Assembly (NCBI GenBank): GCA_907163375.1
Contig: CAJQUW010011540.1
Coordinates: 62,001 to 126,000, forward strand
Direction of reading: 5' to 3'
Source of the DNA: Prostheceraeus crozeri
Taxonomy: Eukaryota > Platyhelminthes > Polycladida > Euryleptidae
DNA length: 64,000 bases
How positions within the stretch are numbered: the first letter of the stretch is position 1; the number at the start of each line of letters is the position of its first letter. Both the position numbers and the translations under genes were made by a program. Shown here one piece after another: positions 17,120 to 62,192 of this stretch. Below the pieces are notes generated by a model. It had not been told where the DNA came from. It was given only the letters and a program-made list of their open reading frames with translations, and searched no databases.

Positions 17120-18750
17120 CAGTCCGTTTCATAAAAAGTGGATCATCCTAAAATTTGACTAAATAAAACATAAGTATGATACAAAAAGCATTTTTCATGT
17201 TATTTCATGTCCCTAATATATTTAAATGTCCTTATAGAATCTGATAAGCTATGATACAGTAACGGTTCTTAAGAAGCTAATATTTTGTGGCCCTGCCCTT
17301 ATTGTCAATGACATTACCAATTCGTCTAGGCATTGATTCGATGATATCGTTGATTTTTGACTGATCTAACTTTCTCCACTCTCTTTTTAACAGTGACGTA
17401 AGTTGTGATACGTCATCTGTAGGTAGCAGTGAACGACGAACGTTACGTTTTAGAATACTCCATACATTTTTTAAGGGATTCAGATCAGGAGAACGAGCTG
17501 GCCAAGATAATGTCCTAAGCCCTAATTGAGACTTGCATAAGTTGACTCTACCACTCCTGTGACACGTAGCATTATCATCCATAAATAACCAAGTCGATGG
17601 ATCACCAAGTTGATCTGTCATTTGGCCAATGTTCATTCGTAAAACATTCACATAGCGTTCAGAATTCATGGTTCCTTGCTGTATGTGAAGTTCAGAGCGG
17701 CCATTGGTCCAAATGCCAGCCCAAATCAGTAGAGTCGCACCACCTTGTACCCGGGGACGATGTAAATGTCTCGGAATTTCCTGATCAGATTTTATCCATA
17801 ATCTCAATCGACCATCACTATCCTTCAGACGGACTGATCCCATTGATTTCGCCAGTGACAATGACTCATTGCCCATCTGAGACGTCTTTTTGTATGCTGA
17901 TCTGATAATTCGATCTGAGAGGGCCTCTTACAGCTCTTGAAATTCGACTCAATAAGTCTTCTACAAATAGTGGACTTAGAAATAGACGAGTCTAGTACAG
18001 CCATCTCAGTTAACGAGAGACTTGGATCAACTTTAACAAATCTCAAAATTAGGCGGTCTCTACGTTTGGATGTTTTGCGTGGACGGCCAGAGCCCTCTTT
18101 ACGACAGAGTCGAAAATCATCATTATGCCATCGATGCACATTTGTGTAAGGGATATTTAGTCGCTTGCTTGTAGCTCGCAAAGAAAACCCTAGTTCTAGC
18201 AAGTCTGACACTTTGCCTTTTGTGAATGCGATCTCGTTATTGTTCATCTGTGCTTTGTATTGTTTTCAACCGGTAAGAGATAGATTTCTAGCTGAAAGCA
18301 ATCAGAAGTGCTGCCAACACCACCGCAACGAAGTCAGGAAGCTATGGAAAATGAAGTCCAGTTAATCACATGTAGCAGTTACATTATTGTTGATGAATAA
18401 TGGTGCTATACTGGCTCTGATTGACCGATTTTCTTTATTTTTGTTTTGCTTGGTAGCTTTTGGCTTGTAGAACAACATACTACATAACAAAGGAAACAAA
18501 TGTAATTTTATAAGAGTGAGGTATGATTTTGTGTAACATTGCTAAATGAAGATCAAATTATCTACTACTTTTTTATCGATAACAGGAAAACAACTCAATA
18601 TTCATGCTTGAAATTTCCAACAATGATATTAGTAAGCACAACTGACATACCTTCCAAATTTCAGAGAAATTCGTTCAAGTTTGGCGGAGTTAGACAAAGT
18701 TGAAGTTAAGGCGATGTTTAAGGGTGATCCATTTTTTATGAAACAATCTT
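17120..18750 (-). mobile_element. Tc1-like DNA transposon, inactive
   Basis: TA dinucleotides flank both ends (17118-17119 and 18751-18752). The left end reads GTTTCATAAAAAGTGGATCA and the right end is the inverted GTTTCATAAAAAATGGATCA, so terminal repeats of about 30 bp enclose 1.63 kb, a normal Tc1 length. One transposase gene fills most of the body on the reverse strand. The forward-strand open frames inside are shadows. Confidence 0.9.
17277..18247 (-). pseudogene. Tc1-like transposase, broken
   Basis: The gene starts at a genuine ATG (18247). Residues 1-60 form a paired-like helix-turn-helix (LRATSKRLNIPYTNVHRW), followed by the AT-hook-like GRPRKTSKRR and a second HTH ending CRRL. The DDE nuclease follows. 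Near 17830-17870 the reading phase changes, and the stretch that should hold the first catalytic Asp (the usual FSDE box before the DGR motif) is missing, consistent with a small deletion. The second Asp is present in WLFMDDNATCHRS. The third catalytic position is changed: SPDLNPLKNVW has Lys where Tc1 enzymes have Glu. Two of three catalytic residues are therefore lost and the protein cannot catalyse transposition. Confidence 0.9.
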
Positions 18751-18979
18751 TATTTCAAAAGTGGCTTGGTAACTGAACACTGTAAATCGCAACAAGAAAT
18801 TCTTTTCGACAGCCGCTGAATCTCTTCTAAAAATCCAAATTCCAATGAGGATGTGTAGTATAGTCCGCCTCTCCTGTCTACTCTGTAAAAGATAGGGATT
18901 CCTGTAAGGACTTTAACATACACTCTTATTCATAAAGTTGTTAATGAGTTTTAGAAAGAGCAATGAAACCTGTGTGCTA

Positions 18980-19766
18980 ATTACGACTAAGAAATGAGTC
19001 GCAAAATCTAGCACCCTTTGAGTGTGAAAATATCAGTATTCATTTTAGAATTCTTGGGGTTCGAAAGCACAGTATTTCATCTGCACTCATTTTAGTATTC
19101 ATTTAGTGATTTACATTGGACTAGCACTTCCACTAAATCGAAAAATGCCATATGGAATATCTAACCCGCTACATCACATACGCACATCCATCGAAGAGCT
19201 GCTTTGGCAATTAAACGCAGATGCATTTGGATCAATAAAATATACACAAGACTCAAAGCCCAGTCGGTGAAGTGGGTAGACGCTGACAGGACTCAAAGCA
19301 CAGTCGGAGAGGATGGAAAACGTTGACATGACTCAAAAACAGTCAAAGATGATAGAAAACGTCGACAGGACAAAAAACACTGCCAGAAAGGATGGCAAGC
19401 GCTGGAAGGACTCAGAGCACCGTCAGAGGTGATGGCAAGGGCTGTCAGGACTCAAGCACATTCGGAGAAAATGGCAAACGCGCTGACAGTAGGAGCAAAG
19501 CACATCGAGCAAGTCAACACGAGCAGTAACAATGAAGACGTCGCTGTGAAGTGTGATAAGTGATGTTATGGCATTTCATTTACGCAATACCGATCAATGG
19601 ATCGCTATTGTCCTACGCTTGTATGTCCCTCCCATTTAGAGAGTCATTGCCATTTTTATGTTTCATCATATTAGTACTTATATGAATTTAAGTTCGATAA
19701 TTTTAGTGCTCTTTCACCCAGTGATCAGATTGGCACTCAAATAGGACTTTATGATTTACGGTTTAG
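18980..19766 (+). repeat. Dispersed repeat with minisatellite core, copy 1
   Basis: This 0.8-kb stretch matches 57280-57947 in order: CTAAGAAATGAGTC, TTTGAGTGTGAAAATATCAG, ACTAGCACTTCCACTAAATC, a minisatellite, GTGTGATAAG then TGATGTTATGGCA, and a final ACTTTATGATTTAC. A partial inverted copy of its first part lies at 56843-57010. No protein is encoded. It is probably a non-autonomous mobile element of unknown class. Confidence 0.65.
19233..19497 (+). repeat. About 45-bp minisatellite
   Basis: Roughly six imperfect units built on GACAGGACTCAAAGCACAGT and CGGAGAGGATGGAAAACG. The homologous copy near 57493-57650 has fewer units, so the array length varies between copies. Confidence 0.75.
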
Positions 19767-24605: not shown

Positions 24606-25672
24606 TTAAACACGGTACTGCATGTATGAATTGCGAAATTGATAAAAGTTGAAGACCGTGTTAATGAGGTGTCGGCGAACCATGAAGCCATTACTTTCGA
24701 TCTCTGATGGAATTTGGTTAGGATCGCTAGTGGTCGGTAAGGATATAGGGGACTCAGCTTCAGGAACAGGATCATTATTATGTTTTGCGAAATTGTGAAG
24801 GATTGCAGTTGATCGAATGTCACGTGCAATATTTTGAATTTTACGTCGGTTTGGCGTGTTGAGCACTGCAAATCGTCTTTTCCAAACTCCGAATGCATTT
24901 TCTATTAGTACACGAGTTCGTTTGTGAGAGTAGTTGTATCTTCTCTCCGACTGATTTTCTGGACTTGATAGGGGAGTCATCAGCCATCTCTTGCAAGGAT
25001 AAGCACTGTCACCAAGGATAAATCCGATGTGATTGTTAGCCCCATATAAGTCCAAAGTTGGGAATCTTGAAGTATGAAACTATCATGAGCACTTCCAGGA
25101 TGCTTTACAACCATGTTGATAAATTTCCCCTGAGAGTCGCACACTGCTTGCACATCAATGCTATGATACATTTTTCGGTTGAGGTACTGCCATTCGTACT
25201 CCTTCGGCTTCAGGATAGGAATGTGCGTTCCGTCAATGCATCCCACAACGTTAGGAAAGCTGGCAATATTGTAAAATTGTTGTTTCACTGTGCGAATATC
25301 CGATGACTCGACAGGAAAGAAAATGGTCTGATCCCACAATTTATCTAACTTTGCACTAACCGATGAGATAACTCTACATGTATATATGGAAGGCTGTGAT
25401 AATCCGCAGGTATCTCCAATTACCATTTGGAAACTTCCTGTTGCATAATTTCGCAATGTGGCTGCAAGCTGATCGGTTGCTGAAATTGATTCACTTCTCT
25501 GAGTTACCTTTTCCAAATTCGGAGATATCCTATCCAATATGTTATTAAACGTCTGCTTAGACAATCGATATCGCGATATGAAGTCAATGTCATCATAGGC
25601 ATGCAAAGGATGAGTTCTTTCAGAGAACTTTTTAGAACGTCGAATAGTGGTTGGGACGATCATTTCAGCCAT
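24606..25672 (-). pseudogene. Harbinger DDE transposase, frameshifted
   Basis: It starts at a genuine ATG (25672). An N-terminal helical region (SKQTFNNILDRISPNLEK) precedes a helix-turn-helix-like GDTCGLSQPSIYTCRVI. The first catalytic Asp lies in NVVGCIDGTHIPI. A single-base phase change near 25045-25060, after DSQLW, moves the rest to another frame. That frame carries the second Asp in GFILGDSAYPC and the Glu in RVLIENAFGVWKRRF. The order D-D-E with the GDSAYP and ENAFG signatures is specific to PIF/Harbinger nucleases, and all three catalytic residues survive, so the gene died recently by the frameshift. The tail after 24800 is acidic and proline-rich. The gene converges on the Myb-like partner. 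Confidence 0.9.
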
Positions 25673-26099
25673 GACTATCTTCTTGTACCGATATTGAATG
25701 TTGATATGAAAAATTGACTACATACACGTGTAGCTGTCGTTCTTCTCCAACCAGTCTAAGTGAACCATTGATTTTCTGCAGTTAACCACTAAATTAGGTG
25801 GTTCACTATTTTCATGTAGCTTCAGCTTGCAGTTATGTAGCTACAGCTACGTAACACATTTCCAGAATACCATTTTGTGGTTAAGTAGCTGTAACTACAT
25901 CGATGGAAGAATTGGTTACCCTTAACCTAAGCTGCAGCTACAGGGTAACCGCTTTCGTGAATTCGGCCTCTGATTACCTTTGTGACTTCTCTATGTTCAG
26001 TATAAACGGCCTTGCTGCATTCCAGACATTTCGATCTTGTCTTTTTGTTACAAACGCTGCAATGTCAGACGCGGCTGTCGTTGGTGGTCAACATTGATT

Positions 26100-27699: not shown

Positions 27700-28890
27700 A
27701 TAAAACTACAATTCCGGTTTTGAATACGACAGCCAACGACCGACCGGTCTTGGATGCCCCATGGGGAGTCCAGTGTCTGTCATAGATGCCAATTTACTTA
27801 TGCAACACATTGAAAATAAAATATTATCTAATAATTTTTGTGATTTGTTATACTGGCGCAGGTGTGTACTGGTAGACGATACCTGGATTGTCATTCCAGA
27901 GCACAACATAGACAAATTTGTTGATTACATCAATACATGTGCTATTGAGCAATCTATTAACTTTACGGTAGAAAGAGAAGATGACAGCCACTCTCTGTCG
28001 TTTCTTGACATTTTCATCACAAGGAATATTGAGGACCATGCTTTTGAGATGTAATTGTTTTATAAGCCGACCCAGACGGACAGGCATTTACAGTTTTCTA
28101 CACACAATCATATGTGTCATAAAAGAACAGTTGTTAAGTGTTTTCACAGAAAGATTGGTTCTTTTATCATCTTGTGATAATGTTAGTGATGCTCAGGGAT
28201 GTTTGTAATAAGCTGCTAAAAAATGGGTATCCGTATAATTTTGTCCGCAAAAATGTTTATTTTCGGGAATCTGTTTTTTCGAATCGTTTTGAAAGCGTAT
28301 AGGTATAGTGTGCTTGCCATATATGTCCAAGATATCTGAGTCTATAGCAAGAATTTTACATCATGATAAAGTCAAGACGTTTTACCAACCGTGTTTGCGA
28401 ATAAGGAATTTTCTACCGGCCCCTAAAGACCGTGTTGATGACGCTCAGAGATGTGGTGTCGTGTGCCAGATAAATTGCCAGGACTGCAACCGCTCTTATG
28501 TAGGCCAATCAGGCAACAGGTTGAATACGCGTGTCGGTCAACATCGCGCCGATTTTCGACTCCTACATCCACAGAAGTCAGGAGTAGCCGAACATTCGCT
28601 AAATAGCGATCATCATATCGATTGGAATAATGTCGACGTACTGGAGCACGAGACAAATTATCATAAAAGATTGTTTTTGAAAGTGTGGCATACAGAACGT
28701 GTTTCAGATACTTTGAATCGTTGTGATCGGAGTGTTCCTTCGGTTTACAGTATTATTTGGTTTAATTCCAGCATTATTTTTCTTCTTGTGATAGTATTGC
28801 ATTACTGTAGATGTTTTAAAGTGCTTTCTGTAAATATTGTAAATAATGTACGATTCTCTCTTTTATCCGATGTCTGTATATAATTTCCTG
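27700..28890 (+). pseudogene. Penelope-like retroelement, 3' half (RT plus GIY-YIG)
   Basis: A 5'-truncated element in several phases. The RT palm is seen at 27761-28054: MGSPVSVIDANLLMQHIENK (motif B region), CVLVDDTW (the catalytic YVDDT-type box, with Val for Tyr), and SLSFLDIFITRN. A second phase near 28050-28170 gives FYKPTQTDRHLQF and HKRTVVKCF, the connector usual in these proteins. The third (28308-28740) has MSKISESIARILH, then GVVCQINCQDCNRSYVGQSG, a clear GIY-YIG endonuclease motif, plus AEHSLNSDHHIDW. At least two frameshifts and in-frame stops (near 28205) make it inactive. The fingers domain and 5' part are missing. Confidence 0.85.
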
Positions 28891-32731: not shown

Positions 32732-32737
32732 GAGATA
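32732..32737 (+). repeat. Left target-site duplication GAGATA
   Basis: GAGATA lies immediately outside the left terminus of the 12-kb element and is repeated directly at 44759-44764, immediately outside the right terminus. Confidence 0.85.
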
Positions 32738-32781
32738 AGTAGTAACCCCATTCCAAATTCAAGCGCAGTGCGGTGCAGTGT

Positions 32782-32812
32782 TGAGTCATCGATGAGTCAT
32801 CATGCTGACTCA
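32782..32812 (+). promoter_or_regulatory. Triple AP-1 (bZIP) site cluster, left tip
   Basis: Three consensus AP-1 heptamers lie within 31 bp: TGAGTCA at 32782, TGAGTCA at 32793 and TGACTCA at 32806. They sit 45 bp from the element tip and are preserved at the right tip. Such spacing by chance is unlikely. They could bind Fos/Jun-type factors or an element-encoded protein. Confidence 0.6.
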
Positions 32813-32879
32813 GCCCCCCCTCTGGAAGGAAGTGGGCAAGGATGTGATGGAAGGATGGGTCCGAGAGGCGGAAACTGTT

Positions 32880-34490
32880 CCCTCCCCCCCTCGGCAGCGA
32901 TCTTCTAACTTTGGTTGTAGAGATGGTAGAAAGTCGTGCAATAGCTCATTTGAAAGCTAAGAGTGAGAAAAATGCCGTGGAAAGCTCAGTTTGGAGTCAT
33001 TTTCTTGGGTTTAGGGAGGAAAATGGCAAGAAACCGTCAGACTTGGAAAAGTCAGGTTTTGGAGGTTTTGGGATGAGAAAGTCAATTTTTCGACAGGAAG
33101 GAGGCCTCGGATGGGAAAACGGAGTGCAAATTCGGACGTTTTGGTCAAAGTTGGATCTAGGAACTTCTTCCCAAATCAATAGGAGAGAAAAAGTTTTGAC
33201 CTCCCCCCCCCCTCCTGCCAAACTTCCAACTTTGGTTGTAGACATCGTAGAAAGTCGTGCAATAGCTCATTTGAAAGCTAAAAGTGAGAAAAATGCCGTG
33301 GAAAGATCAGTATGGACTCATTTTCTTGGGTTTAGAGAGGAAAATGGCAGGAAACCGTCAGACTTGGAAAAGGCAGGTGTTGGTGGTTTTGGGATGAGAA
33401 AGTCCATTTTTCGACATGAAGGAGGCCTCGGATGGGAAAACGGAGGCCAGATTCGGAATTTTTAGTCAATTTTGGGTTAGGAAGGATGTTTCCAGCGACA
33501 TTGGAGAGAAAAAGTTTTGAAGACCTCCCTCCCCCCCTACCAAACTTCCAACTTTGGTGTGAGAGATGGTAGAAAGTCATGCAATAGCTCTTTGAAAGCT
33601 AAGAGTGAGAAAAAGGCAGTGAAAAGCTCAGTTTGGACTCATTTTCTTGGGTTTAGGGAGGAAAATGGCAGGAAACCGTCAGAGTTGGAAAAGTCAGGTT
33701 TTGGAGGTTTTGGGATGAGAAAGTCCATTTTTCGACAGGAAGGAGGCCTCGGATGGGAAAACGGAGTGCAAATTCGGACGTTTTGGTCAAAGTTGGGTCT
33801 AGGAACTTCTTTCCAACTCAATCGAAGAGAAAAAGTTCTGACCTCCCCCCCCTCGACACCGATCTTCCAACTTTGCTTTTAGTGGATGGATTTTGTCGTG
33901 CAATAGCTCATTTGAAAGCTGGGAGTGAGACAAGTTCACTGAAAGAAACGGCTTGTTCATATCTGCCTTCGTTTAGATGTGAGACGTCATTCAAGATTTT
34001 GGGAGATTGGCGAAAAACGACAGAGTTAGAATTTGGACGTTTTTGGGCTGTAGCTTCAAAACGAAGCATCGGATGGGAAAACGGATTTCAGATTTGGAGT
34101 CAGCATGAAATTCTCTATCAACATGGTGAGTTTCAAGTCAATCGGAGAGAAAAATTTTCGCTGACGTCCCCCCCCTCGGGAGAGCTAGCTTCGATCTTGG
34201 CTTCCAGTGGACGGATTTTGTCGTGCCATAGCTCCTTTGAAAGCTGGGAGTGAGACAAATTCAGTGGAAAACATGGCTTGTTCATATCTACCCTCGTTTA
34301 GAGGTGAGATGTTATTGAAAATTTGGGACCTTGGCGAAAAAACGACTAAGTTAGAATTTTTGCGATAGCTGTTGGCTGTAGAGCCAAAACGAAGCATCGG
34401 ATGGGAAAATGGAGGGCAGATTCGGATTCAGCGTCAAATTCTACATGGAAATGGCGTATTTCCAGCTCAATCGGAGCACTAGAACCGGAG
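32880..34490 (+). repeat. About 320-bp tandem repeat array, left arm
   Basis: Five units are marked by poly-C tracts near 32885, 33207, 33528, 33846 and 34168. Each unit contains GTCGTGCAATAGCTCATTTG, then GAAAGCT, GGGTTTAGGGAGGAAAATGG and GGATGGGAAAACGGA. The unit is close to 321 bp (107 codons), and one forward frame stays open over the first two units (32911-33465), reading ESRAIAHLKAKSEKNAVE repeatedly. The opposite strand is also partly open, so coding is not established. The inner units are more diverged. Confidence 0.85.
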
Positions 34491-34523
34491 ATAGACGGGT
34501 TTTTAGTGTTTGGATGATGGGTA

Positions 34524-34558
34524 TTACGTCATCAGCTGATCGCCACACACTATATAAG
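34524..34558 (+). promoter_or_regulatory. CRE plus TATA promoter pointing inward, left arm
   Basis: TTACGTCA (34524-34531, a CREB/ATF-type site) lies about 20 bp before TATATAAG (34551-34558). Transcription would start near 34583 and run toward the centre. The first ATG downstream (34628) opens only six codons, and a GTAAGA donor-like site follows near 34663, so the product is either non-coding or spliced. The whole arrangement is mirrored at 43339-43373. Confidence 0.5.
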
Positions 34559-35049
34559 TGGAAACTCGGCTTGTGGAAATCAGTTCTCCTCCCGACTGGG
34601 TTGGGGTAGGTGAACTCCGGAGCTCCGATGATAGCATTGGAAATCTGAAAAACCGGGTTTCTGTAAGAAAGCGACTTAGAAAATTTCATTGCTGAACTCA
34701 GCTAAGGCGTCAGACTTAGAGGTTCGCCAGGAGATGGCCTTCGTCTCCAGGCCATAAAAGACTCCAAAACTTTAAAGGCTTGTAACTTTGCTTCTACAAG
34801 TCCGTTTGACTTGATTCAAAAAAGGTTCGGTTGCTATTGACCTGCCCTAAGTGATAGACTACTTATAAAATTTCATAAGTAGTGTTAAAAAGTTGAAAAA
34901 TTTAAATTCACTAGTTTTGGAGGTTTTCTGGGGTTTTCGACCCTGCTGAAGTCAATGAAAGGATTTGTCATGATATCTGAGCGAGTCTTCTCATGGACTA
35001 AGCGGCTTTTCACTGAAAGCGAGCAAGACATGGAGAGTTTTGCTGTAAT

Positions 35050-35600
35050 ATTCCACTGACAGGGTGTTCCTTCGGGACGGCGGACGATGCCGTAGTGTTA
35101 AGTGTGGCAAGGGAGTGTGTCATAGTTTAGACCAAAACCCCTGGGGGTCGTCTCATGTTGGGCATTTGACACAGTTCTCAAGGTAGCACTTTGAACGCCA
35201 ATCGGTTGAGTCTTAGCTATCTTGTCATGGGTGGCCTCTAAACATCTCCATTGCAAAACGCTGGTGAATCAAGCTCGCTCTCTACGGCTTGCTATCAAGC
35301 TGATCAAAGTCTGCTAACCTCTTACCAACTCCACCGGTTTTCATGTCTGGCGATCAAGTCATGGACGGTGCACGATTTTCGGTGTGATACTTCCTGTGGG
35401 TGATTTCGAGACAGCGGTGAAGTCCGTAGCTGCACGGGACGTGGGCAATGGTAATCCTTGTGAAACCTCTCTGCGTCATGTCTGCAATGTTTCGTCTCAA
35501 CGTTGTACTCTGACCGCCAGGGCGACATTTAGCTATCTGCCACAGGTTACCTCATAAAATCTCCATTGCACTTGTCTCCCGACAGTTGGCCAACCATGAG
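35050..35600 (-). repeat. Diverged duplicated module, left arm
   Basis: Mirror of 42300-42850. Read on the reverse strand, two consecutive segments share CAATGGAGAT...AAGATAGCTAA and CA-AGTRC-ACSTTGAGA landmarks, so an ancestral unit of about 300 bp duplicated and diverged. Partial frames (reverse 35322-35528) exist without an ATG start. Confidence 0.5.
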
Positions 35601-35689
35601 AGAATGAACCATCAGTTCTTCTTGTCTCTATCACGATGACGAAATGATGAATGGAATGAAGGGAGGACATTCATGCGCCACACGCAACA

Positions 35690-36560
35690 CATCACAGAAT
35701 TCTCTCTTCGCTAGTGAACAAGCTCTTGTCAGTGTCGTACAAAAGTTTTACTGCAGCACAGGTTGATGTATAGTTAGAAAGATTGATCATTGAAGGTTTA
35801 TTCGTAAGTCTAGTCAGAAACTTTATCATGTTGTACAAAGGTTTTATTGCAACACAGGTTGATGTATAGTTAGAAAGTTTGATCATGACGTTTATTCGTG
35901 AGTGTCATCAGAAAGTGTATCATGGTTTGTAAAAGCAAAGTTTAGTATAGTCAAATATTTTTACTGTAACACAGGTTGATGTATAGTTAGAAAGTTTGAT
36001 CATGACGTTTATTCGTAAGTCTAATCAGAAACTTCATCATGTTGTACAGAGGTTTTACTGCAGCACAGGTTGATGTATAGTTAGAAAATTTGATCATTGA
36101 AGTTGTATTTGTGAGTGTCATCAAAAAGTGTATCATGGTTTGCAAAGTTAGTGTAGTCAAATATTTTTACTGTAACACAGGCTGATGTATAGTTAGAAAG
36201 TTTGATCATGACGTTTATTCGTAAGTCTAGTCAGAAACTTCATCATGTTGTACAAAGGTTTTACTGCAGCACAGGTTGATGTATAGTTAGAAAACTTGAT
36301 CATTGAAGTTGTATTCGTAAGTCTAATCAGAAAGTGTATCATGGTTTGCAAAGTTAGTGTAGTCAAGTAGTTTTACTGTGACACACGTTTGTAAAAGTAA
36401 AGTTTGATCATTGACGTTGTATTCGTAGGTCTAGTCAGAAAGTGTATCATGGTTTGTAAAAGTTTTACTGCAACACAGGTTGATGTATAGTTAGAAAAGT
36501 TTGATCATGACGTTTTATGAAACACAAGTGTCATGAAATGCTAGCGTTAGTGTAGTCAAA
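35690..36560 (+). repeat. About 100-bp tandem array, left arm
   Basis: At least seven copies of ACAGGTTGATGTATAGTTAG followed by AAAGTTTGATCATGACG occur at spacings of roughly 90-115 bp, with insertions between some units. Further shortened versions continue toward 36660. Confidence 0.85.
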
Positions 36561-36908
36561 TAATATTACCGCGACACACGTTTGTGAAAATAATGTTTGA
36601 TCATTGACGTTGTATGACTGACCGAACTCATCACAGCACTAGAAAGTTTTAGAAGGTTTTACTGCACAATGTAGATTGTCTTGTAACTTACTTTCACAGT
36701 GTTAGAAAGTTTTATTGGAGACAGTTGCCAAATGTTTCCCTATTAGAAAATTCAAACTTCATGACTGTTAGATTAGCTTCATCAGGTTTACTAAAAGCAG
36801 TTTTCTACTGCAATGAGAGTTTAGAATGTTATATGAAAACGGTGTTCGCCACAGCACTAGAAAGTTTTAATCCTTAGTTGAGATCCGGACTGCAGTGTGT
36901 AAAATGTT

Positions 36909-37214
36909 TTATGTGACAGTCTTTTCACAAACGGTGAAGTGTAAATTCAGAGTGAATACATCTGTTAGGTAGTCATTAACTTTGGATGTGAAGTAAAGCG
37001 AATCTGTGTACAGAATGAATTGAATATTAGACAACGCATGCAAGTTTTTGATGACTTGAGTGGTTGAACCCAAGTCTAAGTTTAACATGTTGGATATAAA
37101 AGTGAGATGGATAGGAATAAGTGTTGAATGTTTTATAAAACCAGATGTTGTCACACACGTTGAGTATGTATTCCATGACATTGAATCGCGTGGGTCGTAA
37201 AGTTCATCATCCAA
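36909..37214 (-). CDS. Arm open frame, about 100 codons (left copy)
   Basis: Identical to 40684-40989. The first codon is TTG. The first in-frame ATG is at residue 12 (MSWNTYSTCVTTSGFIKHST). A TATA box (TATAAAA, 37245-37251 on this strand) lies upstream. Hydrophobic and polar residues alternate without repeats, which looks protein-like (NLHALSNIQFILYTDSLYF). No family is recognised, and the lack of a well-placed ATG leaves coding unproven. Confidence 0.3.
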   Translation of the reverse strand: MDDELYDPRDSMSWNTYSTCVTTSGFIKHSTLIPIHLTFISNMLNLDLGSTTQVIKNLHALSNIQFILYTDSLYFTSKVNDYLTDVFTLNLHFTVCEKTVT

Positions 37215-37244
37215 GGCTAGGCTCCTCTACGGTTGGATTTAGGG

Positions 37245-37251
37245 TTTTATA
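37245..37251 (-). promoter_or_regulatory. TATA box, left arm, pointing outward
   Basis: TATAAAA on the reverse strand, mirrored at 40647-40653, followed by the CCCTAAATCCAAC module. It faces the inward CRE/TATA promoter of the same arm across the tandem array. Confidence 0.45.
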
Positions 37252-37538
37252 TGACATGTGTTAACCGTTCGTGTAGAATATGTGAAGCACATGTTCGCTT
37301 AAATGCAAATGTTGAAATAAGTTTTGTAAGAAGTCTTTGACAGGTTGTTGTGAAACTTAGCGAACGTTGAAAAAAGTTTTGTGAAATGTTTCTGCAGTCA
37401 CACTCATTAGCGTACCAGCTTTACTAAATGTGTTGTTTGCCTTTATCAAATTGAATGTGTGTGTGTTTTGTAAATAAAGACAGCGTGTTTGCACTCTGCA
37501 TCGACAGCATACAAGTATAGACATAGCAACTTGTTGTT

Positions 37539-38926
37539 CCAGTAGAAACATTTATTCTGTTACATCCATGAACATGACGTGATAAAATTCACATCATATT
37601 AAAACCTTTTAACAGCGCTTGTCTTTAAACATATGCTGAATCTCACGTAGCTTGTTTGTTACACTACCAATTCATTTCAATGCGAGCTAATCTTGCATCA
37701 CTGATTTCATGCGACATAACTTTTCACTTTACTTATTCCTACAATGCTACTACTATGTGTTCTAAACTTTCTGAGATCGCTTTCACTTCTATCTCACACT
37801 TTCTCCATCATATAACTAAGTGAATAAAGTTGATGATACATTATCTGACTAAACTCATTGAGTCACATCCTACACGAGCAGATATTGCTAACATGGATCA
37901 TATAAGACGCTAAGTCTTGTCATAGGGTTGACTATACTATGGAGTTAGTGATTTATCAAATTAACTTGTACTTCTAAAACGCTAAATCCCTAAATCTTAA
38001 CGCAGGGATACCTATCCTAAGGGTTTAGTGATTTAGGAGTTTTGCTGTATAGTTTAGTAAACTTATGTCTCTGTCAGCATACGACTTTTAAAATACAACA
38101 CTGACTGATGATTGATGCTCATATATTCCTAGCTTGGATAACAAGAAACTTTCATGCGTTGACTATTATATATTTTAACTCTTTACACACTTATTATTCC
38201 AATCACTAAGATACATACAACTCTTCTATTGAACATGTATCAATCACCTTTTAACTCACCACATCAAATGTAAAGTGTATAAAATAATGAGCATGTAACT
38301 ATCTCTCATCAACGATATGAAATCTGTCTTTTTAACCTGAAATTAAGTCTTGCCTTCAAAGTCATTTTATAAAGCGAACATATGCATCACGTATTCTACA
38401 CTAAAATAGATCGTTCATTTGTGCTATCCAAAGCCCTAAGTCCCTAAATCCAACGGTAGGTAACCCTACCTCTTAGATGATGGACTTAAGCAATTTATAG
38501 GTCAAGTATAAATAAAGTGACAAGCATTTCAGTGTTTGTAAGTTAGGTAAAGTATAAAATAGTGTCACAAGCATTTCACTGTTTGCAACGTTAGAAATAT
38601 AGTTGATGTTTGTAAAGTTTGAAATCATGTTGGAATCCTTTCAGTGTTTGTAAAGTTAGAGATAATAGGTTCAATAAGTACGTTAGAGAGTTGACTGTAC
38701 TGAGGTCTAAGGATGTGATGGTCACATTAGAATTCAAGTGACTGAATGTCATCCTAATGAAGATAGAAATGTGTTTGTGGCTGCATGTGGTGCAAGAGTG
38801 TCCTCCCATTTCATTCCATTCATTATATATCCTTTCCCTCTGCATTCCATATCCGAAGATATGTGGCGGGCTTGGGACCGCTTTAGCTGCACTAGAAGGA
38901 AGTTCTTATAAGAACTCATGATGCAT
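37539..38926. other. Unique centre, left part: diverged copies of an arm module
   Basis: Two CCCTAAAT-type boxes occur, CCCTAAATCTTAACGCAGGG near 37987 and CCCTAAATCCAACGGTAGG near 38443. Both resemble CCCTAAATCCAACCGTAGAG in the right arm near 40654. Downstream, GTGTCCTCCCATTTCATTCC near 38799 matches ATGTCCTCCCTTCATTCC in the arm near 42228. The centre therefore seems to hold an old shortened copy of the whole arm transcription module. No convincing gene is present. Confidence 0.5.
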
Positions 38927-39397
38927 TCACGAGGAAATGTGGTGAAACAGTGTGCTGTATGTGTGCATGATGATTTTATGAACTAAAGAACGCCCATCAC
39001 TCACTCCATCACTGAAAGAAAACATGAATGAGTTGAGATGATAGTCATTCGTATGCATGTGTAAAACTCTTACTTCATTATCCGATATCACAATGACATC
39101 TTCACTCGCTTCCACTTCCTCACTTTCTATGTTATCACTTTCCATGTTATCACTTTCGACCGTCTCGCTCTCGCTGGTTGCCATCTCGGCCTCGCTCCCC
39201 ACCGTCTCGCTCTCACTCGGAGATTCCTGCAGATCCATCATCGGGGATTCGGGTGGAGGTATGACGTTCGATTCATCGAACAAGGAATAGTATTTCATAA
39301 AATGAAATACTATATCCTCACTCTCATCGGAGAGAAACGTTTCACCCATATAAGTAATCCTATATGGGGTAACTTGAGCAGTTGGCTTCTCGGACAT
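38927..39397 (-). CDS. Central acidic protein with SUMO-interaction-like motif
   Basis: The only substantial frame in the centre. The first real ATG is at 39397 (MSEKPTAQVT); upstream codons lack ATG. A TATA box sits about 30 bp before it. Residues 1-50 are mixed (PYRITYMGETF, DIVFHFMKYYSLF). Residues 50-100 are extremely rich in Ser, Glu and Asp. Residues 101-108 read VIVISDNE, a hydrophobic core flanked by acid, as in SUMO-interaction motifs. At 39073 a GTAAGA donor follows the GAA codon, and a TTTTCTTTCAG acceptor ends at 39012. Splicing this 62-bp intron would put a TGA immediately after, giving 108 residues, while the unspliced frame gives 156. Acidic proteins of this type can be transcription regulators, but no family match is claimed. 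Confidence 0.5.
   Translation of the reverse strand: MSEKPTAQVTPYRITYMGETFLSDESEDIVFHFMKYYSLFDESNVIPPPESPMMDLQESPSESETVGSEAEMATSESETVESDNMESDNIESEEVEASEDVIVISDNEVRVLHMHTNDYHLNSFMFSFSDGVSDGRSLVHKIIMHTYSTLFHHISS
39012..39073 (-). other. Candidate 62-bp intron in the central gene
   Basis: On the reverse strand it begins GTAAGAG and ends in CATGTTTTCTTTCAG, with a good polypyrimidine tract. The length agrees with the 68-bp intron in the Harbinger gene of this window. If removed, the frame stops at once. Confidence 0.4.
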
Positions 39398-39427
39398 GAT
39401 TATGATAGTAAAATGCACGAGACTCTG

Positions 39428-39434
39428 CTTTATA
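39428..39434 (-). promoter_or_regulatory. TATA box of the central gene
   Basis: TATAAAG on the reverse strand. A start site about 30 bp downstream would lie near 39404, only a few bases before the ATG at 39397, implying a very short leader. Confidence 0.5.
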
Positions 39435-40359
39435 GGAGAATGATACAGCCTTTCAAATGTCTGGTTCGCGCAATCAAATCGCTCTAAGCTTATGTTTGGT
39501 GGACGAAAAGGGAAGTCATATTTTCATTGACTGCCATCCTCAACCACTCAACAAACTTAGATGCATTTATCGCGTGAATCTCCCTTCCGGTCGGATAGCA
39601 ATGACCTGTGTGGGAATCAGCTAGGTGGGAGGTCGGAGATGGCGATAAGTTCCTGCATCCTTGCTCGTGGGACAGATGCGATAGATCTCTGTTTCATGTG
39701 ACAGACGAGTGCCAGAGAGAGCGCGTACATCTTTGTGTTCTACTCTATCTGCCGAGAGCTAGCGCGACAGACGATCGCCAACCGGCTGCGCTGTCATTCA
39801 TCTTTGTGTTCTACTCAATCTGCTGAGGGGCTAGCGAGACAACCAGGCGTCAGAGAGCACTTATGATTCTTTGTGGGCACAGGAGGGGTTTTTTCACTGA
39901 TAGGTTTTATGACAAACATTTTGAATGGTAGCGTGTTGACTATTGCAAGCCATGTTAAATGTCATGTTTTCATCGTCTGCATTCACTCAGAAAATGCTGT
40001 TTCCTACAAATTAGTTTTCTCAACAGACGTATTCATTGTGTGAGTTCAAGGGTCGAGTCGTTGAACTAAGACTTATGCGTTTCTACAGGTCTTGATATCA
40101 GCTTTCAACACGCCTGCAATCTATGAAAGTTTTACCAACATAAAGTTGTTGACATAAAGTTTCTTACACCGCAGTTCATGTTTACGACTTTCATTTGAAT
40201 GTCAGATTTGTATGTTCATCTGTCTATGATGAGTGTAAACGTTGTCACAGTTCTCCTTTATTTCCCGTAAACTAGTTGTGACACTTTTGTGTTTCACTTC
40301 ATCTATCAGGTTGATTTTTATCTCACACATAATGTTTCCTATCTCATATGCATTCGACT
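39435..40359. other. Unique centre, right part
   Basis: A GC-richer patch (39590-39870) contains two copies of a CTTTGTGTTCTACTC segment about 70 bp apart (39733 and 39803), each followed by a GCTAGCG tract. The rest is AT-rich. A forward frame at 39608-39826 overlaps the duplication and is not convincing as a gene. Confidence 0.4.
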
Positions 40360-40646
40360 AACAACAAGTTGCTATGTCTATACTTGTATGCTGTCGATGC
40401 AGAATGCAAACACGCTGTTTTTATTTACAAAACACACACACATTCAATTTGATAAAGGCAAACAACACATTTAGTAAAGCTGGTACGCTAATGATTGTGA
40501 CTGCAGAAACATTTCACAAAACTTTTTTCAACGTTCACTAAGTTTCACAACAACCTGTCAAAGACTTCTTACAAAACTTATTTCAACATTTGCATTTAAG
40601 CGAACATGTGCTTCACATATTCTACACGAACGGTTAACACATGTCA

Positions 40647-40653
40647 TATAAAA
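40647..40653 (+). promoter_or_regulatory. TATA box, right arm, pointing outward
   Basis: TATAAAA followed by CCCTAAATCCAACCGTAGAG. Mirror image of 37245-37251. Confidence 0.45.
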
Positions 40654-40683
40654 CCCTAAATCCAACCGTAGAGGAGCCTAGCC

Positions 40684-40989
40684 TTGGATGATGAACTTTA
40701 CGACCCACGCGATTCAATGTCATGGAATACATACTCAACGTGTGTGACAACATCTGGTTTTATAAAACATTCAACACTTATTCCTATCCATCTCACTTTT
40801 ATATCCAACATGTTAAACTTAGACTTGGGTTCAACCACTCAAGTCATCAAAAACTTGCATGCGTTGTCTAATATTCAATTCATTCTGTACACAGATTCGC
40901 TTTACTTCACATCCAAAGTTAATGACTACCTAACAGATGTATTCACTCTGAATTTACACTTCACCGTTTGTGAAAAGACTGTCACATAA
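40684..40989 (+). CDS. Arm open frame, about 100 codons (right copy)
   Basis: Exact copy of 36909-37214. The TTG at 40684 is about 30 bp after the TATA box, and the first in-frame ATG is 11 codons further. No known family. It could be translated from the internal ATG or be part of a non-coding RNA. Confidence 0.3.
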   Translation: MDDELYDPRDSMSWNTYSTCVTTSGFIKHSTLIPIHLTFISNMLNLDLGSTTQVIKNLHALSNIQFILYTDSLYFTSKVNDYLTDVFTLNLHFTVCEKTVT

Positions 40990-41337
40990 AAGATTTTACA
41001 CACTGCAGTCCGGATCTCAACTAAGGATTAAAACTTTCTAGTGCTGTGGCGAACACTGTTTTCATATAACATTCTAAACTCTCATTGCAGTAGAAAACTG
41101 CTTTTAGTAAACCTGATGAAGCTAATCTAACAGTCATGAAGTTTGAATTTTCTAATAGGAAACATTTGGCAACTGTCTCCAATAAAACTTTCTAACACTG
41201 TGAAAATAAGTTACAAGACAATCTACATTGTGCAGTAAAACCTTCTAAAACTTTCTAGTGCTGTGATGAGTTCGGTCAGTCATACAACGTCAATGATCAA
41301 ACATTATTTTCACAAACGTTTGTCGCGGTAATATTAT

Positions 41338-42208
41338 TTGACTACACTAACGCTAGCATTTCATGACACTTGTGTTTCATAAAACGTCATGATCAAACTT
41401 TTCTAACTATACATCAACCTGTGTTGCAGTAAAACTTTTACAAACCATGATACACTTTCTGACTAGACCTACGAATACAACGTCAATGATCAAACTTTAC
41501 TTTTACAAACGTGTGTCACAGTAAAACTACTTGACTACACTAACTTTGCAAACCATGATACACTTTCTGATTAGACTTACGAATACAACTTCAATGATCA
41601 AGTTTTCTAACTATACATCAACCTGTGCTGCAGTAAAACCTTTGTACAACATGATGAAGTTTCTGACTAGACTTACGAATAAACGTCATGATCAAACTTT
41701 CTAACTATACATCAGCCTGTGTTACAGTAAAAATATTTGACTACACTAACTTTGCAAACCATGATACACTTTTTGATGACACTCACAAATACAACTTCAA
41801 TGATCAAATTTTCTAACTATACATCAACCTGTGCTGCAGTAAAACCTCTGTACAACATGATGAAGTTTCTGATTAGACTTACGAATAAACGTCATGATCA
41901 AACTTTCTAACTATACATCAACCTGTGTTACAGTAAAAATATTTGACTATACTAAACTTTGCTTTTACAAACCATGATACACTTTCTGATGACACTCACG
42001 AATAAACGTCATGATCAAACTTTCTAACTATACATCAACCTGTGTTGCAATAAAACATTTGTACAACATGATAAAGTTTCTGACTAGACTTACGAATAAA
42101 CCTTCAATGATCAATCTTTCTAACTATACATCAACCTGTGCTGCAGTAAAACTTTTGTACGACACTGACAAGAGCTTGTTCACTAGCGAAGAGAGAATTC
42201 TGTGATGT
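41338..42208 (-). repeat. About 100-bp tandem array, right arm
   Basis: Reverse complement of the left array: CTTTCTAACTATACATCAAC then CTGTG repeats at about 100-bp steps, with GCAGTAAAACCTTTGTACAA in most units. Confidence 0.85.
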
Positions 42209-42299
42209 GTTGCGTGTGGCGCATGAATGTCCTCCCTTCATTCCATTCATCATTTCGTCATCGTGATAGAGACAAGAAGAACTGATGGTTCATTCTCTC

Positions 42300-42850
42300 A
42301 TGGTTGGCCAACTGTCGGGAGACAAGTGCAATGGAGATTTTATGAGGTAACCTGTGGCAGATAGCTAAATGTCGCCCTGGCGGTCAGAGTACAACGTTGA
42401 GACGAAACATTGCAGACATGACGCAGAGAGGTTTCACAAGGATTACCATTGCCCACGTCCCGTGCAGCTACGGACTTCACCGCTGTCTCGAAATCACCCA
42501 CAGGAAGTATCACACCGAAAATCGTGCACCGTCCATGACTTGATCGCCAGACATGAAAACCGGTGGAGTTGGTAAGAGGTTGGCAGACTTTGATCAGCTT
42601 GATAGCAAGCCGTAGAGAGCGAGCTTGATTCACCAGGGTTTTGCAATGGAGATGTTTAGAGGCCACCCATGACAAGATAGCTAAGACTCAACCGATTGGC
42701 GTTCAAAGTGCTACCTTGAGAACTGTGTCAAATGCCCAACATGAGACGACCTCCAGGGGTTTTGGTCTAAACTATGACACACTCCCTTGCCACACTTATC
42801 ACTACGGCATCGTCCGCCGTCCCGAAGGAACACCCTGTCAGTGGAATATT
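42300..42850 (+). repeat. Diverged duplicated module, right arm
   Basis: Two successive segments begin CAATGGAGAT (42329 and 42645) and translate to QWRFYEVTCGR and QWRCLEATHDK, followed by IAK--P-G-QS-TLR in both, though the first copy needs a one-base shift. The pattern suggests a duplicated and decayed coding unit. The second copy stays open to 43012. There is no ATG start and I do not recognise it. Confidence 0.45.
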
Positions 42851-43338
42851 ACAGCAAAACTCTCCATGTCTTGCTTGCTTTCAGTGAAAAGCCGCTTAGT
42901 CCATGAGAAGACTGGCTCAGATATCATGACAAATCCTTTCGTTGACTTCAGCAGGGTCGAAAACCCCAGAAAACCTCCAAAACTAGTGAATTTAAATTTT
43001 TCAACTTTTTAGCACTACTTATGAAATTTTATAAGTAGTCTATCACTTAGGGCAGGTCAATAGCAACCGAACCTTTTTTGAATCAAGTCAAACGGACTTG
43101 TAGAAGCAAAGTTACAAGCCTTTAAAGTTTTGGAGTCTTTTATGGCCTGGAGACGAAGGTCATCTCCTGGCGAACCTCTAAGTCTGACGCCTTAGCTGAG
43201 TTCAGCAATGAAATTTTCTAAGTCGCTTTCTTACAGAAACCCGGTTTTTCAGATTTCCAATGCTATCATCGGAGCTCCGGAGTTCACCTACCCCAACCCA
43301 GTCGGGAGGAGAACTGATTTCCACAAGCCGAGTTTCCA

Positions 43339-43373
43339 CTTATATAGTGTGTGGCGATCAGCTGATGACGTAA
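43339..43373 (-). promoter_or_regulatory. CRE plus TATA promoter pointing inward, right arm
   Basis: Mirror of 34524-34558: TGACGTAA at 43366-43373 and CTTATATA at 43339-43346 as written on the forward strand. Confidence 0.5.
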
Positions 43374-43714
43374 TACCCATCATTCAAACACTAAAACCCG
43401 TCTATCTCCGGTTCTAGTGCTCCGATTGAGCTGGAAATACGCCATTTCCATGTAGAATTTGACGCTGAATCCGAATCTGCCCTCCATTTTCCCATCCGAT
43501 GCTTCGTTTTGGCTCTACAGCCCACAGCCATCGCAAAAATTCTAACTTAGTCGTTTTTTCGCCAAGGTCCCAAATTTTCAATAACATCTCACCTCTAAAC
43601 GAAGGTAGATATGAACAAGCCATGTTTTCCACTGAATTTGTCCCACTCCCAGCTTTCAAACGAGCTATGGCACGACAAAATCCGTCCACTGGAAGCCAAG
43701 ATCGAAGCTAGCTC

Positions 43715-44600
43715 TCCCGAGGGGGGGGGAGGTCTTCAAAACTTTTTCTCTCCGATTGAGTTGGGAAGAAGTTTCTAGACCCAACTTTGACCAAAACGTC
43801 CGAATTTGCACTCCATTTTCCCATCCGAGCACTCCTTCATGTCGAAAAACGATTTTTCTCATCCCAAAACCTCCAACACCTGCCTTTTCCAACTCTGACG
43901 GTTTCCTGCCATTTTCCTCCCTAAACCCAGGAAAATGAGTCCAAACTGAGCTTTCCACTGCATTTTTCTCTTTTTTAGCTTTCAAATGAGCTATTGCACG
44001 ACTTTCTACGATGTCTACAACCAAAGTTCGGTAGATCGCTGCCGAGGGGGGGAGGTCAGAACTTTTTCTCTTCGATTGAGTTGGGAAGAAGTTCCTAGAC
44101 GCAACTTTGACCAAAACGTCCGAATTTGCACTCCGTTTTCCCATCGGAGACCTCCATCTGCCCGAAAAACGACTTTTCTCATCCCAAAACATCCAAAACC
44201 TACCTTTTCCAACTCTGACGGTTTCTTGCCATTTTCCTCCCTAAACCCAGGAAAATGAGTCCAAACTGAGCTTTCCAGGGCATTTTTCTCACTCTTTGCT
44301 TTCAAATGTGCTATTGCACGACTTTGTGCGATGTCTACAACCAAAGTTAGAAGATCGCTGCCGAGGGGGGGGGGAGGTTAGAACTTTTTCTCTCCAATGT
44401 CGCTGGAAACATCCTTCCGAACCCAAAATTTCACGTAGAGTCCGAATCTGCACTCCGTTTTCCCATCCGAGGCCTCCTTCTGCTCGAAAAACGACTTTTC
44501 TCATCCCAACACCACCAACACTCGCCCTTTCCTCACTCACTCCCTCACACGTCACCTTCCTTCCCTTACCCGAACACTCCTTCCTTCCTTCCAGAGGGGG
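43715..44600 (-). repeat. About 320-bp tandem repeat array, right arm
   Basis: About three units on the reverse strand, with poly-G tracts (forward view) near 43725, 44047 and 44368. Sequence and spacing match the left array, but fewer units are present, explaining the shorter arm. Confidence 0.8.
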
Positions 44601-44683
44601 GGAGGGACCTGTTTCCTCCTCACGGACCCATTCCTCCCAACACATCCTTGGCGAACTCCCTTCCTGCCAGAGGGGGGGGGGGC

Positions 44684-44714
44684 TGAGTCAGCATGATGAC
44701 TCATCGATGACTCA
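44684..44714 (-). promoter_or_regulatory. Triple AP-1 site cluster, right tip
   Basis: TGAGTCA at 44684, TGACTCA at 44697 and TGACTCA at 44708 mirror the left-tip cluster. Confidence 0.6.
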
Positions 44715-44758
44715 TCACTGCACCGCACTGCGCTTGAATTTGGAATGGGGTTACTACT

Positions 44759-44764
44759 GAGATA
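44759..44764 (+). repeat. Right target-site duplication GAGATA
   Basis: Direct repeat of 32732-32737, immediately outside the terminal ACTACT. Confidence 0.85.
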
Positions 44765-56475: not shown

Positions 56476-56842
56476 CAAACACCAATCTGTGACATTTCAT
56501 CGATTTCCTCTAAATGAACCTAAGACATCAAATTTGGATCAAACTTTGATCGCACTAACTTTATTCCGACGACATATGCACTTTTCTTTTCACTTCAATG
56601 ATGATGATTATAAAATTGAATCAGCCGATTTGCACATTCTCTGCGTGGACATGCTATGACTACCTTCGGCATGTGAATTGTGATTCTTATAATCGTGAAC
56701 GATAGGATGCAAATTTGCTTTCTTTGATCATAACTGCAATTCAATGTATTCTACTTTTAAGAATCTTCTTCAAGATGAAAGTGATTTAATTTATTCAAAT
56801 GCATTTATGCATTTCATTTATGGCACAGCAGTTCTTTTGTGG

Positions 56843-57947
56843 AAGTGCTAGTCCTATTCAACTCATTAAATGAGTACTAAAATGAGTACGAATTAAGTAT
56901 TGATGCTTTCGAACCCAAAGAGTTCTAAAATAAGTACTAATATTTTCGAACTCAAAGAATACTAGATTTTAGGACTCATTTCTTGGTCGTAGTTAGTACT
57001 AGGATTAAGTTTTCTTTCTAGTACTCATTTGAGACTACATGAATAGCACCGTACAGTATAACAATTCCGAACTTTAATTTTCACAATGGTTTTCATTAGC
57101 TATTATTCATTATAAGCAAGTAGTAAATAGATTGATTGCTTTTGATGGAAAGAGCATGAAAAACCATTAAGAAATAGACTTTTGTATGAGAATTGCCAAT
57201 GGCATGAGCAAATTTAGATATATACAGTGCACTATTTTTTATAAAGTCTCAAATGAGTGCTTGACAGAGCACTGAATCTGAGTACGAACTGCGGCTAAGA
57301 AATGAGTCCAAAATTTTAGTACTCTTTGAGCGTGAAAATATCGGTACTCATTTAGTGAGTTGCGTAGGACAAGCACCTCCGCTAAATCCCAAAATACCAT
57401 ACGGCATATCACACCTGCTATATCCCATGTGCACATCTAAGAACTGCTTAGGCAACTAAACATAAATGTATTTCGATCAATAAAACATTCACTGGACTCA
57501 AGACGCAGTTGGTGAAGTGAGTAAACGCTGGCAAGACTGAAAGCCCAGTCAGAGATGATGGAAAACATTTGCAGAGCTCAAAGCACTGTCGTAGAGGATG
57601 GTAGACGTTTGTAGAACTCAAAGCACTGTCGGAGAGAATGGCAAGCACTCTGAAATTAGGAGCAAAGCACATCGAACAAGCCAACACGAACAGTGACAAT
57701 AGAGACGGCGCTGTGACGTGTGATAAGCGATGTTATGGCAATGTAATCACGCACCCCGATCAATACATCGCTATTGTCCTACGCTTGTATGTCCTTCCCT
57801 TTTAGTGAGTCATTGCTATATTGATGTTTCATCATTGTAGTACTTAGTACGCTTTATAGTGCTTGTGTGAAACTAAGTTCGATCATTTTAGTACTCTTTT
57901 CATTCAGTACTCAGATTGGAACTTAAATTGAACTTTATGATTTACAT
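56843..57947 (+). repeat. Dispersed repeat with minisatellite core, copy 2, with inverted head
   Basis: 57280-57947 matches 18980-19766. Its first part is also present in reverse complement at 56843-57010 (for example AGTGCTAGTCC, then ATGAGTACTAAAATGAGTAC), so this copy has a foldback head. The minisatellite at 57493-57650 is shorter than in copy 1. A reverse frame through it (57448-57699) is not convincing. Confidence 0.6.
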
Positions 57948-61445: not shown

Positions 61446-61463
61446 TAACGCTACATGTCCCAA

Positions 61464-62192
61464 TTAGTCCGGCAGCCAGAACGAGTTTCTGCAGGGAACG
61501 AGGCCGAAAGTGAGACTTTCACAGAATGATGTGCACCCTATGCCTACTACGAATTGGCACGTCTGCCGAGTTCTATTGAGTTCCTCTTCTTGTCAGACAG
61601 GATCAAAGAAAAACACATGTAAATCCAATGGGACGCAGATTGCAGTTTTTGACTAAAATGAAATTTTGTATGTTTTCTCTGATTAAACGAAAAGTACCAA
61701 GTCTAGAGTCATGATTTTTGACATGGAATGTATTCAGGTCATTTCCTATGATGTGCAGATGCTTTTATCATGCATTATATCGCCGATGTATGCGAGAATC
61801 AGGTTGAATGTGGATAAAGTAGCTCAAAATGTTTGTGTTTGCCGACATTTAGAGGCTCGCCAAATATAAATGTGTTTAGCTTTAGAGACAGGGGTGCATG
61901 AACATGAAAGGAAATGACCTGAATACATTCCATGTCAAAAATCATGACTCTAGACTTGGTACTTTTCGTTTAATCAGAGAAAACATAGAAAATTTCATTT
62001 TAACCAAAAACTGCAATCTGCGTCCCATTGGATTTACATGTGTTTTTCTTTGATCCTGTCTGACAGGAAGAGGAACTCACTAGAACTCGACAGACGTGCC
62101 GATTCGTAGTAGGCATAGGGTGTACATTATTCTGTGAAAGTCTCACTTTCGGCCTCGTTCCCTGCAGAAACTCGTTCTGGCTGCCGGACTAA
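61464..62192. mobile_element. Foldback MITE with 283-bp inverted arms
   Basis: The arms 61464-61746 and 61910-62192 are reverse complements without net length change. Tips read TTAGTCCGGCAGCCAGAACG. The 163-bp spacer is unrelated. AAT occurs on both sides if the element is taken as TAGTCC...GGACTA (61462-61464 and 62192-62194), a possible 3-bp duplication. A decayed relative lies at 13808-14425. Confidence 0.8.

Follow-up and report, generated by a model that had tools for sequence, protein, structure and literature searches.

We predict that a 12,021-bp element in the genome of the flatworm Prostheceraeus crozeri is a palindromic, reduced and non-autonomous member of a multipartite Polinton family, one whose genes are divided among several kinds of element, and that it is mobilised in trans (probability roughly two in three). 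The element occupies positions 32738-44758 of the window, the 64,000-nucleotide stretch of DNA analysed here (C9575:62001-126000 of a 2.05-Gb assembly, in which all searches of the organism's own genome were made). Shared ends bound three kinds of element in this genome, designated classes A, B and C, and we assign the window element to class C. The direct evidence for such a family comes from the common ends, the target duplications, the partition of genes among the best-scoring copies and the many frames that remain open.

The window element and its gene

The element is flanked by an exact 6-bp duplication, GAGATA (32732-32737 and 44759-44764), and its termini, AGTAGTAACCCC...GGGGTTACTACT, carry the motif AGTAGT...ACTACT. 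The left tip (32738-32807, plus strand), which opens with AGTAGTAACCCC, is closely related to the termini of elements of all three classes at other genomic sites. The right tip (44689-44758, minus strand) is the left tip inverted, with 98.6% identity over these outermost 70 bp, and the terminal 155 and 165 bp are 88% identical. Both tips (32738-32830 and 44665-44758) contain TGAGTCA twice together with TGCTGACTCAGC, sequences that we take to resemble bZIP (AP-1/MARE) sites. Inverted arms of 4,801 bp on the left and 4,399 bp on the right make up 76.5% of the element and enclose a single-copy centre of 2,821 bp (37539-40359). The inner left arm (34168-37538, plus strand) is 99.2% identical to its partner, the inner right arm (40360-43728, minus strand), with 26 differing aligned positions over 3.37 kb; on its face, inverted similarity of this extent (3.4 kb at 99%) lies well beyond chance. 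The outer arms align at 84-92% identity when scored in 200-bp bins of aligned columns, and long gaps reflect their unequal repeat numbers. On the left they consist of arrays with C-tracts in units of about 321-325 bp (32902-34442, plus strand; 32902-33930 and a second stretch to 34442), and on the right of an array of about 320-321-bp units with a lower copy number (43717-44532, minus strand). A 206-bp tandem array is present in both arms (35731-36508, plus strand; 41389-42166, minus strand). The first-pass annotation of this DNA had described the exact duplication, AG...CT tips, arms of 4.8 and 4.4 kb filled with tandem arrays and exceeding three quarters of the element, and a 2.8-kb centre, and the coordinates and the 321-bp and 206-bp units bear out this description.

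The centre contains ACID (38930-39397, minus strand), an acidic open reading frame (ORF) of 156 amino acids that begins MSEKPTAQ. ACID has at least 162 matches in the organism's own genome, of which 150 were listed, the window copy included, and the protein database holds one relative, at 89% identity; three pattern matches in IMG/VR viral contigs yielded no confirmed relative. Six comparisons among four copies gave ratios of nonsynonymous to synonymous substitution rates (dN/dS) of 0.37-0.47, calculated over the whole 156-codon stretch with its presumed intron; these comparisons are not independent, because the four copies form two close pairs. A candidate splice donor, GAA/GTAAGAG (39067-39073, minus strand), follows ...VISDNE. 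Two of the four aligned copies contain stops, only downstream of this donor, a pattern that would fit splicing at this site. The C-terminal part of ACID (39040-39110) contains VIVISDNE amid acidic residues (VIVISDDE in relatives), which we take to resemble a SUMO-interacting motif. The annotation had stated that the element carries none of the Polinton genes. This stands for the genes tested, since the element has no match to the integrase, PolB, protease or putative capsid and ATPase ORFs of the family; it is not, however, gene-free, and with ACID under selection we rejected the description of a gene-free foldback element.

The arms themselves do not appear to encode genes. An ORF of 115 amino acids in the right arm (42340-42687) is broken in the left arm, and arm ORFs were therefore rejected as genes; an ORF of the arm arrays had six protein-database matches, which resemble translations of the same repeats. 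There were no Rfam matches at the gathering score in the whole window, and a single 1.6-kb query had no match in a phage collection.

Elements with the same ends

The first 200 bp, including six flanking bases, gave 41 matches in the genome when 40 of 4,664 candidates, the window among them, were scored, and six facing pairs of tips lie 16.6-43.5 kb apart. Stretches were fetched around the tips at 12 places and then around the integrase copy C7219, and element ends were placed by eye from the tip matches. Eight of nine two-ended family elements have 6-bp duplications, five of them exact and three matching at five of six positions. The annotation had tentatively inferred Polinton-type mobilisation and had suggested a search for further copies; Polinton-type integration and the existence of other copies are borne out by these duplications, by the AGTAGT/ACTACT tips and by the relatives of the tips and of the central ORF. 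The tip pattern was found in no stretch of the IMG/VR viral contigs.

The element without a duplication, C5766 (67175-84205; L009, L010), has flanks that are exact reverse complements over the 15 bases printed, perhaps as a result of a collapsed-repeat misassembly or a rearrangement. Such misjoins may therefore occur in the assembly, and the window palindrome could in principle be a foldback misjoin of the same kind. We consider this very improbable and rejected a mirror artefact for the window element, because its flanks are unlike each other, its duplication is exact and its arms carry private differences. Elsewhere in the genome, 31 of 32 neighbouring ACID pairs have a convergent inverted arrangement (30 of them 2.6-9.6 kb apart), although these may share the same weakness. 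Two convergent copies of ACID are also as expected if the arms grow inward across genes.

Class A (C5766 and C7219) encodes an integrase with rve and chromo domains, a C48 protease and a RING ORF, as well as ORFs that resemble the ATPase and capsid (MCP) proteins of Polintons and have no Pfam match. Neither C5766, read tip to tip, nor C7219, read except for 1.7 kb around its integrase and not as far as both flanks, has a match to POLB. Class B encodes a TBP-fold protein, a PolB that includes C2H2 and Endonuclease_7 parts, and further ORFs; C11280 and C2832, both read tip to tip, have no match to INT or MCP. The class B PolB is 59% identical over 780 amino acids to a database protein carrying DNA_pol_B_2 (9.5e-18) and has a DTDS motif, and from its sequence it is likely to be of the protein-primed type. 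It has 4,811 matches in the protein database at 1e-5, the best of the 120 listed at 62% identity, and none by sequence in PDB. Pattern matches in IMG/VR viral contigs (eight for POLB, three for MCP) yielded no confirmed relative, and seven ORFs had no match in PHROGs. The TBP protein (L014:2057-2596, minus strand) has a diverged two-repeat TBP fold, with a TATA-box-binding protein as its best PDB match (1.5e-6); to our knowledge, a protein of this fold is uncommon in Polintons. Class B also includes C1023, a two-ended element of 9.1 kb with a partial PolB, and C13750, of which one end was read. Class C comprises C6267, C4929, C5600 and the window element, all of which have the acidic ORF; the first three add a coiled-coil ORF and others, and the window copy is without the coiled-coil gene. 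Two further elements are gene-poor: the sole gene match in C11181 (13.3 kb) is an ORF related to one from class A, and C227 has no gene match.

Multi-kilobase arms, of 1.7-6.2 kb, were found in seven elements spanning all three classes, the window included. Left and right arms extend 3929 and 3523 bp (C7219, measured from the ends of the fetched stretch) and, patchily, 3228 and 2904 bp (C5766) in class A, 3417/3199 and 2253/1711 bp in class B, and 4791/4811 and 6228/5337 bp in class C. Shorter arms are present in C11181 (1874/1208 bp) and in C1023 (619/633 bp). The arms of all three classes also contain TTACGTCA and TATATAAG followed 31 bp on by TCAGTT, each motif being exact in 14 of the 16 arm copies that were aligned (four further matches shorter than 150 bases were left out of the alignment). 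In the window element, this block lies at 34521-34586 on the plus strand (TATATAAG at 34551-34558, TCAGTT at 34580) and at approximately 43311-43376 on the minus strand, facing inward in both arms. We read it, from its motifs, as a presumed core promoter.

The annotation had inferred a separate family of giant foldback elements. This idea did not hold, because the long arms of six other elements are common to gene-bearing classes of the same family. Another explanation makes the window element part of an independent gene-less foldback family, similar to Foldback or Galileo and outside the Polintons, with AG/CT tips acquired by convergence. Long, internally repetitive inverted arms that make up most of the element are what such a family would have. 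However, elements that carry a Polinton-type integrase or PolB have the same tips and arms, and the 6-bp duplications and the AGTAGT/ACTACT motif also contradict this explanation, to which we give very little credence.

Gene linkage and selection

The distribution of genes among copies across the genome points to a division of the family. Linkage was examined among the best-scoring copies (INT, 125 of 26,587 candidates; POLB, 57 of 27,132; ACID, 150 of 1,166; MCP and TBP, lists of 150 each), so that all copy counts are lower bounds. The pairs tested were INT-MCP, POLB-INT, POLB-MCP, POLB-TBP, TBP-INT, TBP-MCP, TBP-ACID, ACID-INT and ACID-POLB. MCP was found at one of two fixed offsets, 1.7 or 2.0 kb, from INT in 63 of 125 copies, the other 62 having no listed MCP nearby, and TBP was within 5 kb of POLB in 50 of 57. 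The lists are thus dense enough to show linkage where it exists. No POLB copy was within 10 kb of INT or of MCP (0 of 57 each), no TBP copy within 10 kb of INT, MCP or ACID (0 of 150), and no ACID copy within 10 kb of INT or POLB (0 of 150). The sole POLB-INT pair within 20 kb, on C3196, has element ends between its members: one element stops at position 256,808, and from position 257,013 there is a weak match to the tip (26 bp, 88%). The annotation had suggested a search for larger relatives with integrase and polB between the same tips. Integrase or PolB is indeed present in such relatives, but in two separate classes; the two genes occur together in none of the listed copies, and we rejected their co-occurrence. 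POLB copies in the same orientation were observed on C3151 (29688 and 49665, 20.0 kb apart) and C1944 (317288 and 328240, 11.0 kb apart), and are perhaps tandem segments.

Most of the scored copies appear intact and similar to one another. INT copies are 91-100% identical, with 94 of 125 free of stops, and the 57 POLB copies are at least 95% identical. Frames of at least 1,300 codons contain 44 of the 57 POLB matches (a stop is marked in three of these), and stops are absent from 147 of the 150 TBP matches. Among scored copies, 13 of INT, 19 of MCP, 21 of TBP and 20 of ACID have equal bit scores, which suggests recent bursts in each class. The dN/dS values were 0.20-0.42 for POLB (a piece of 322-338 codons), 0.23-0.45 for TBP, 0.36-0.85 for L013_3988 and 0.69 for SMALLp2.

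One interpretation of this partition treats class A, supplied with PolB from elsewhere, as the real element, and classes B and C as non-autonomous hitch-hikers, which borrow its ends with no designed complementarity. A possible source exists: a second, conventional Polinton is nested inside the PolB of C11615, a two-ended class B element (about 218565 to 237592, L021-L024), and carries INT (38%) and POLB together, so that single-piece Polintons do exist in this genome and could supply PolB in trans. The poverty of genes in the window element and C11181 also fits this interpretation. However, the PolB of the nested element shows no more than 28-32% identity, and the tips of that element, AGTAATGG...CCATTACT, are unlike those of the family; its two junctions show a CAGTCT duplication. 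Many class B copies, moreover, retain long frames for PolB and TBP, and the POLB ratios are low, as given above. We therefore regard hitch-hiking as unlikely, though it is the alternative to which we give the most weight.

Alternatively, the classes could be recent deletion derivatives, each with a different internal deletion, of an ancestral Polinton that had all the genes. Gene-poor transposons usually arise as non-autonomous deletion copies, and the classes have arms in common; classes A and B also share a small paralogous ORF, SMALLp. At 32-33% identity between the classes, however, SMALLp makes the split look old. Copies read tip to tip have no matches to the core genes of other classes, and no element of the family with both INT and POLB is among the listed copies. 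Recent deletion thus appears improbable, more so than hitch-hiking.

Several observations weigh against a family divided among elements. Class A could draw on a PolB supplied by a different Polinton family of this genome, and the scoring of best copies leaves room for an older element that unites both genes in one piece between these tips. C4337 opens like a class B element, with a tip and part of the N-terminal region of PolB; about 12 kb from that tip is an INT match that is distant (37-40%), and the stretch read shows no right tip. This match is probably another nested Polinton, as at C11615. The sole ACID-POLB pair within 20 kb, on C1944, is separated by 16.0 kb. Both ends were read in just one class A copy, C5766, and its mirror-image flanks mean that the assembly may be wrong at its right end. 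The capsid and ATPase labels of class A ORFs are our assumption from resemblance, without a Pfam match. The PolB frame is interrupted in C11280, and the PolB pieces of C2832 and C1023 contain stops. Finally, dN/dS values of 1.04-1.26 for the coiled-coil ORFs and 0.85-1.42 for L011_5241 (few comparisons, with one more pair undefined) are near or above 1 and weaken the case for these ORFs as genes.

Proposed mechanism, surroundings and precedents

We consider it an evenly balanced question whether these elements together represent a multipartite Polinton, that is, an integrated, virus-like double-stranded DNA genome permanently divided into at least three kinds of segment, which have multi-kilobase ends in common and burst together, as an intermediate between a transposon and a segmented DNA virus. 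Class A would then be the structural and integration segment, class B the replication and transcription segment with its own TBP, and class C a palindromic regulatory segment. In such a system, the inward-facing arm promoters would drive the genes of each class, the class B PolB would copy linear DNA starting at the common tips, and the class A integrase would insert the copies and so make the 6-bp duplications. Structural proteins of class A may package the copies, and the acidic and coiled-coil proteins of class C may be regulators. These steps in trans, and the functional interdependence of the classes, are what we propose from the sequences.

Palindromes may have grown when one end of a linear DNA was copied onto the other, through a panhandle or a template switch, which would account for the near identity of the inner arms. 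In C4929, as in the window element, the innermost part is the most similar (99.2% vs 92-96%). C6267 is without this pattern (94.7-96.9% in its main arm alignments), and it is not clear in class A or B copies. If one half was copied onto the other, this would thus have happened recently in some copies only. The window copy is without the coiled-coil gene, and its centre is short.

Outside the element, the window contains other coding remnants, namely GIY-YIG ORFs, a transposase in two frames and a DDE_Tnp_4 transposase (3328-3933, 12072-12545, 17277-18265, 24606-25717 and 28293-28883; the second was noted by eye only and the last is below the Pfam cut-off). From their domains, we take these to be Penelope-like, Tc1-like and Harbinger-like, and they mark the window as eukaryotic DNA rich in repeats, most probably from an animal. 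A second repeat family with 40-bp units occupies 18921-19759 and 56835-57945, which are about 75% alike with parts inverted, and a 297-bp inverted repeat (61461-61757 and 61899-62195) has 95.6% identity across a 141-bp spacing.

The family is similar to Polintons/Mavericks and adintoviruses in its 6-bp duplications, end motif, terminal inverted repeats, rve and chromo integrase, PolB and cysteine protease. Among vertebrate Mavericks, (AGT)2//(ACT)2 is reported as the most frequent motif at the ends, and intact copies hold their core genes in a single element of 12.7-24.6 kb with seven or eight conserved ORFs and repeats of 46-1,447 bp (PMC8097293). Unlike these, the family described here has its genes split over classes, repeats of 1.7-6.2 kb and a TBP-fold protein in class B. 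The window element itself is without the rve integrase and PolB, which class A and class B elements, respectively, carry between the same tips. Among the structural genes of Polintons, the C48 protease is present in class A, where putative capsid and ATPase ORFs are so labelled by resemblance.

Long, internally repetitive inverted arms are also found in Galileo/Foldback of Drosophila, although Galileo is reported to belong to the P-element superfamily by its transposase (PMC3573991), and the present family has an rve integrase and 6-bp duplications. Neither ten window ORFs, two of them in the element, nor ten family ORFs had a Pfam match to a P-superfamily transposase.

The nearest precedent is provided by bidnaviruses (PMC11071296, PMC4061559, PMC8363768). 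Bombyx mori bidensovirus and Drosophila Vesanto virus have several linear segments that end in inverted repeats, and their PolB is of Polinton origin. The second bidnavirus segment is thought to derive from the first by gene replacement with the ends kept (PMC4061559), and Vesanto virus has perhaps up to twelve segments (PMC8363768). The present family consists of separate integrated elements with common ends, one class of which has PolB, and these may or may not correspond to such segments. Bidnaviruses, in contrast, are small single-stranded DNA viruses with parvovirus-type capsids and a superfamily 3 helicase, and the flatworm family has many integrated copies and an rve integrase in one class. 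Among the titles and abstract openings listed from an open-access library, with subscription literature mostly outside this scope, we found no report of a Polinton with its genes divided over elements.

Polintons are regarded as self-contained mobile viruses. If the integrase and structural genes and the polymerase do reside on separately amplified elements, the family would be a multipartite transposon. It would then offer a natural case for the origin of genome segmentation, a step proposed for the descent of bidnaviruses from Polintons, and the distinction between helper and satellite would become directly testable from genome sequence. End copying during the replication of linear DNA would also be a possible origin of giant genomic palindromes.

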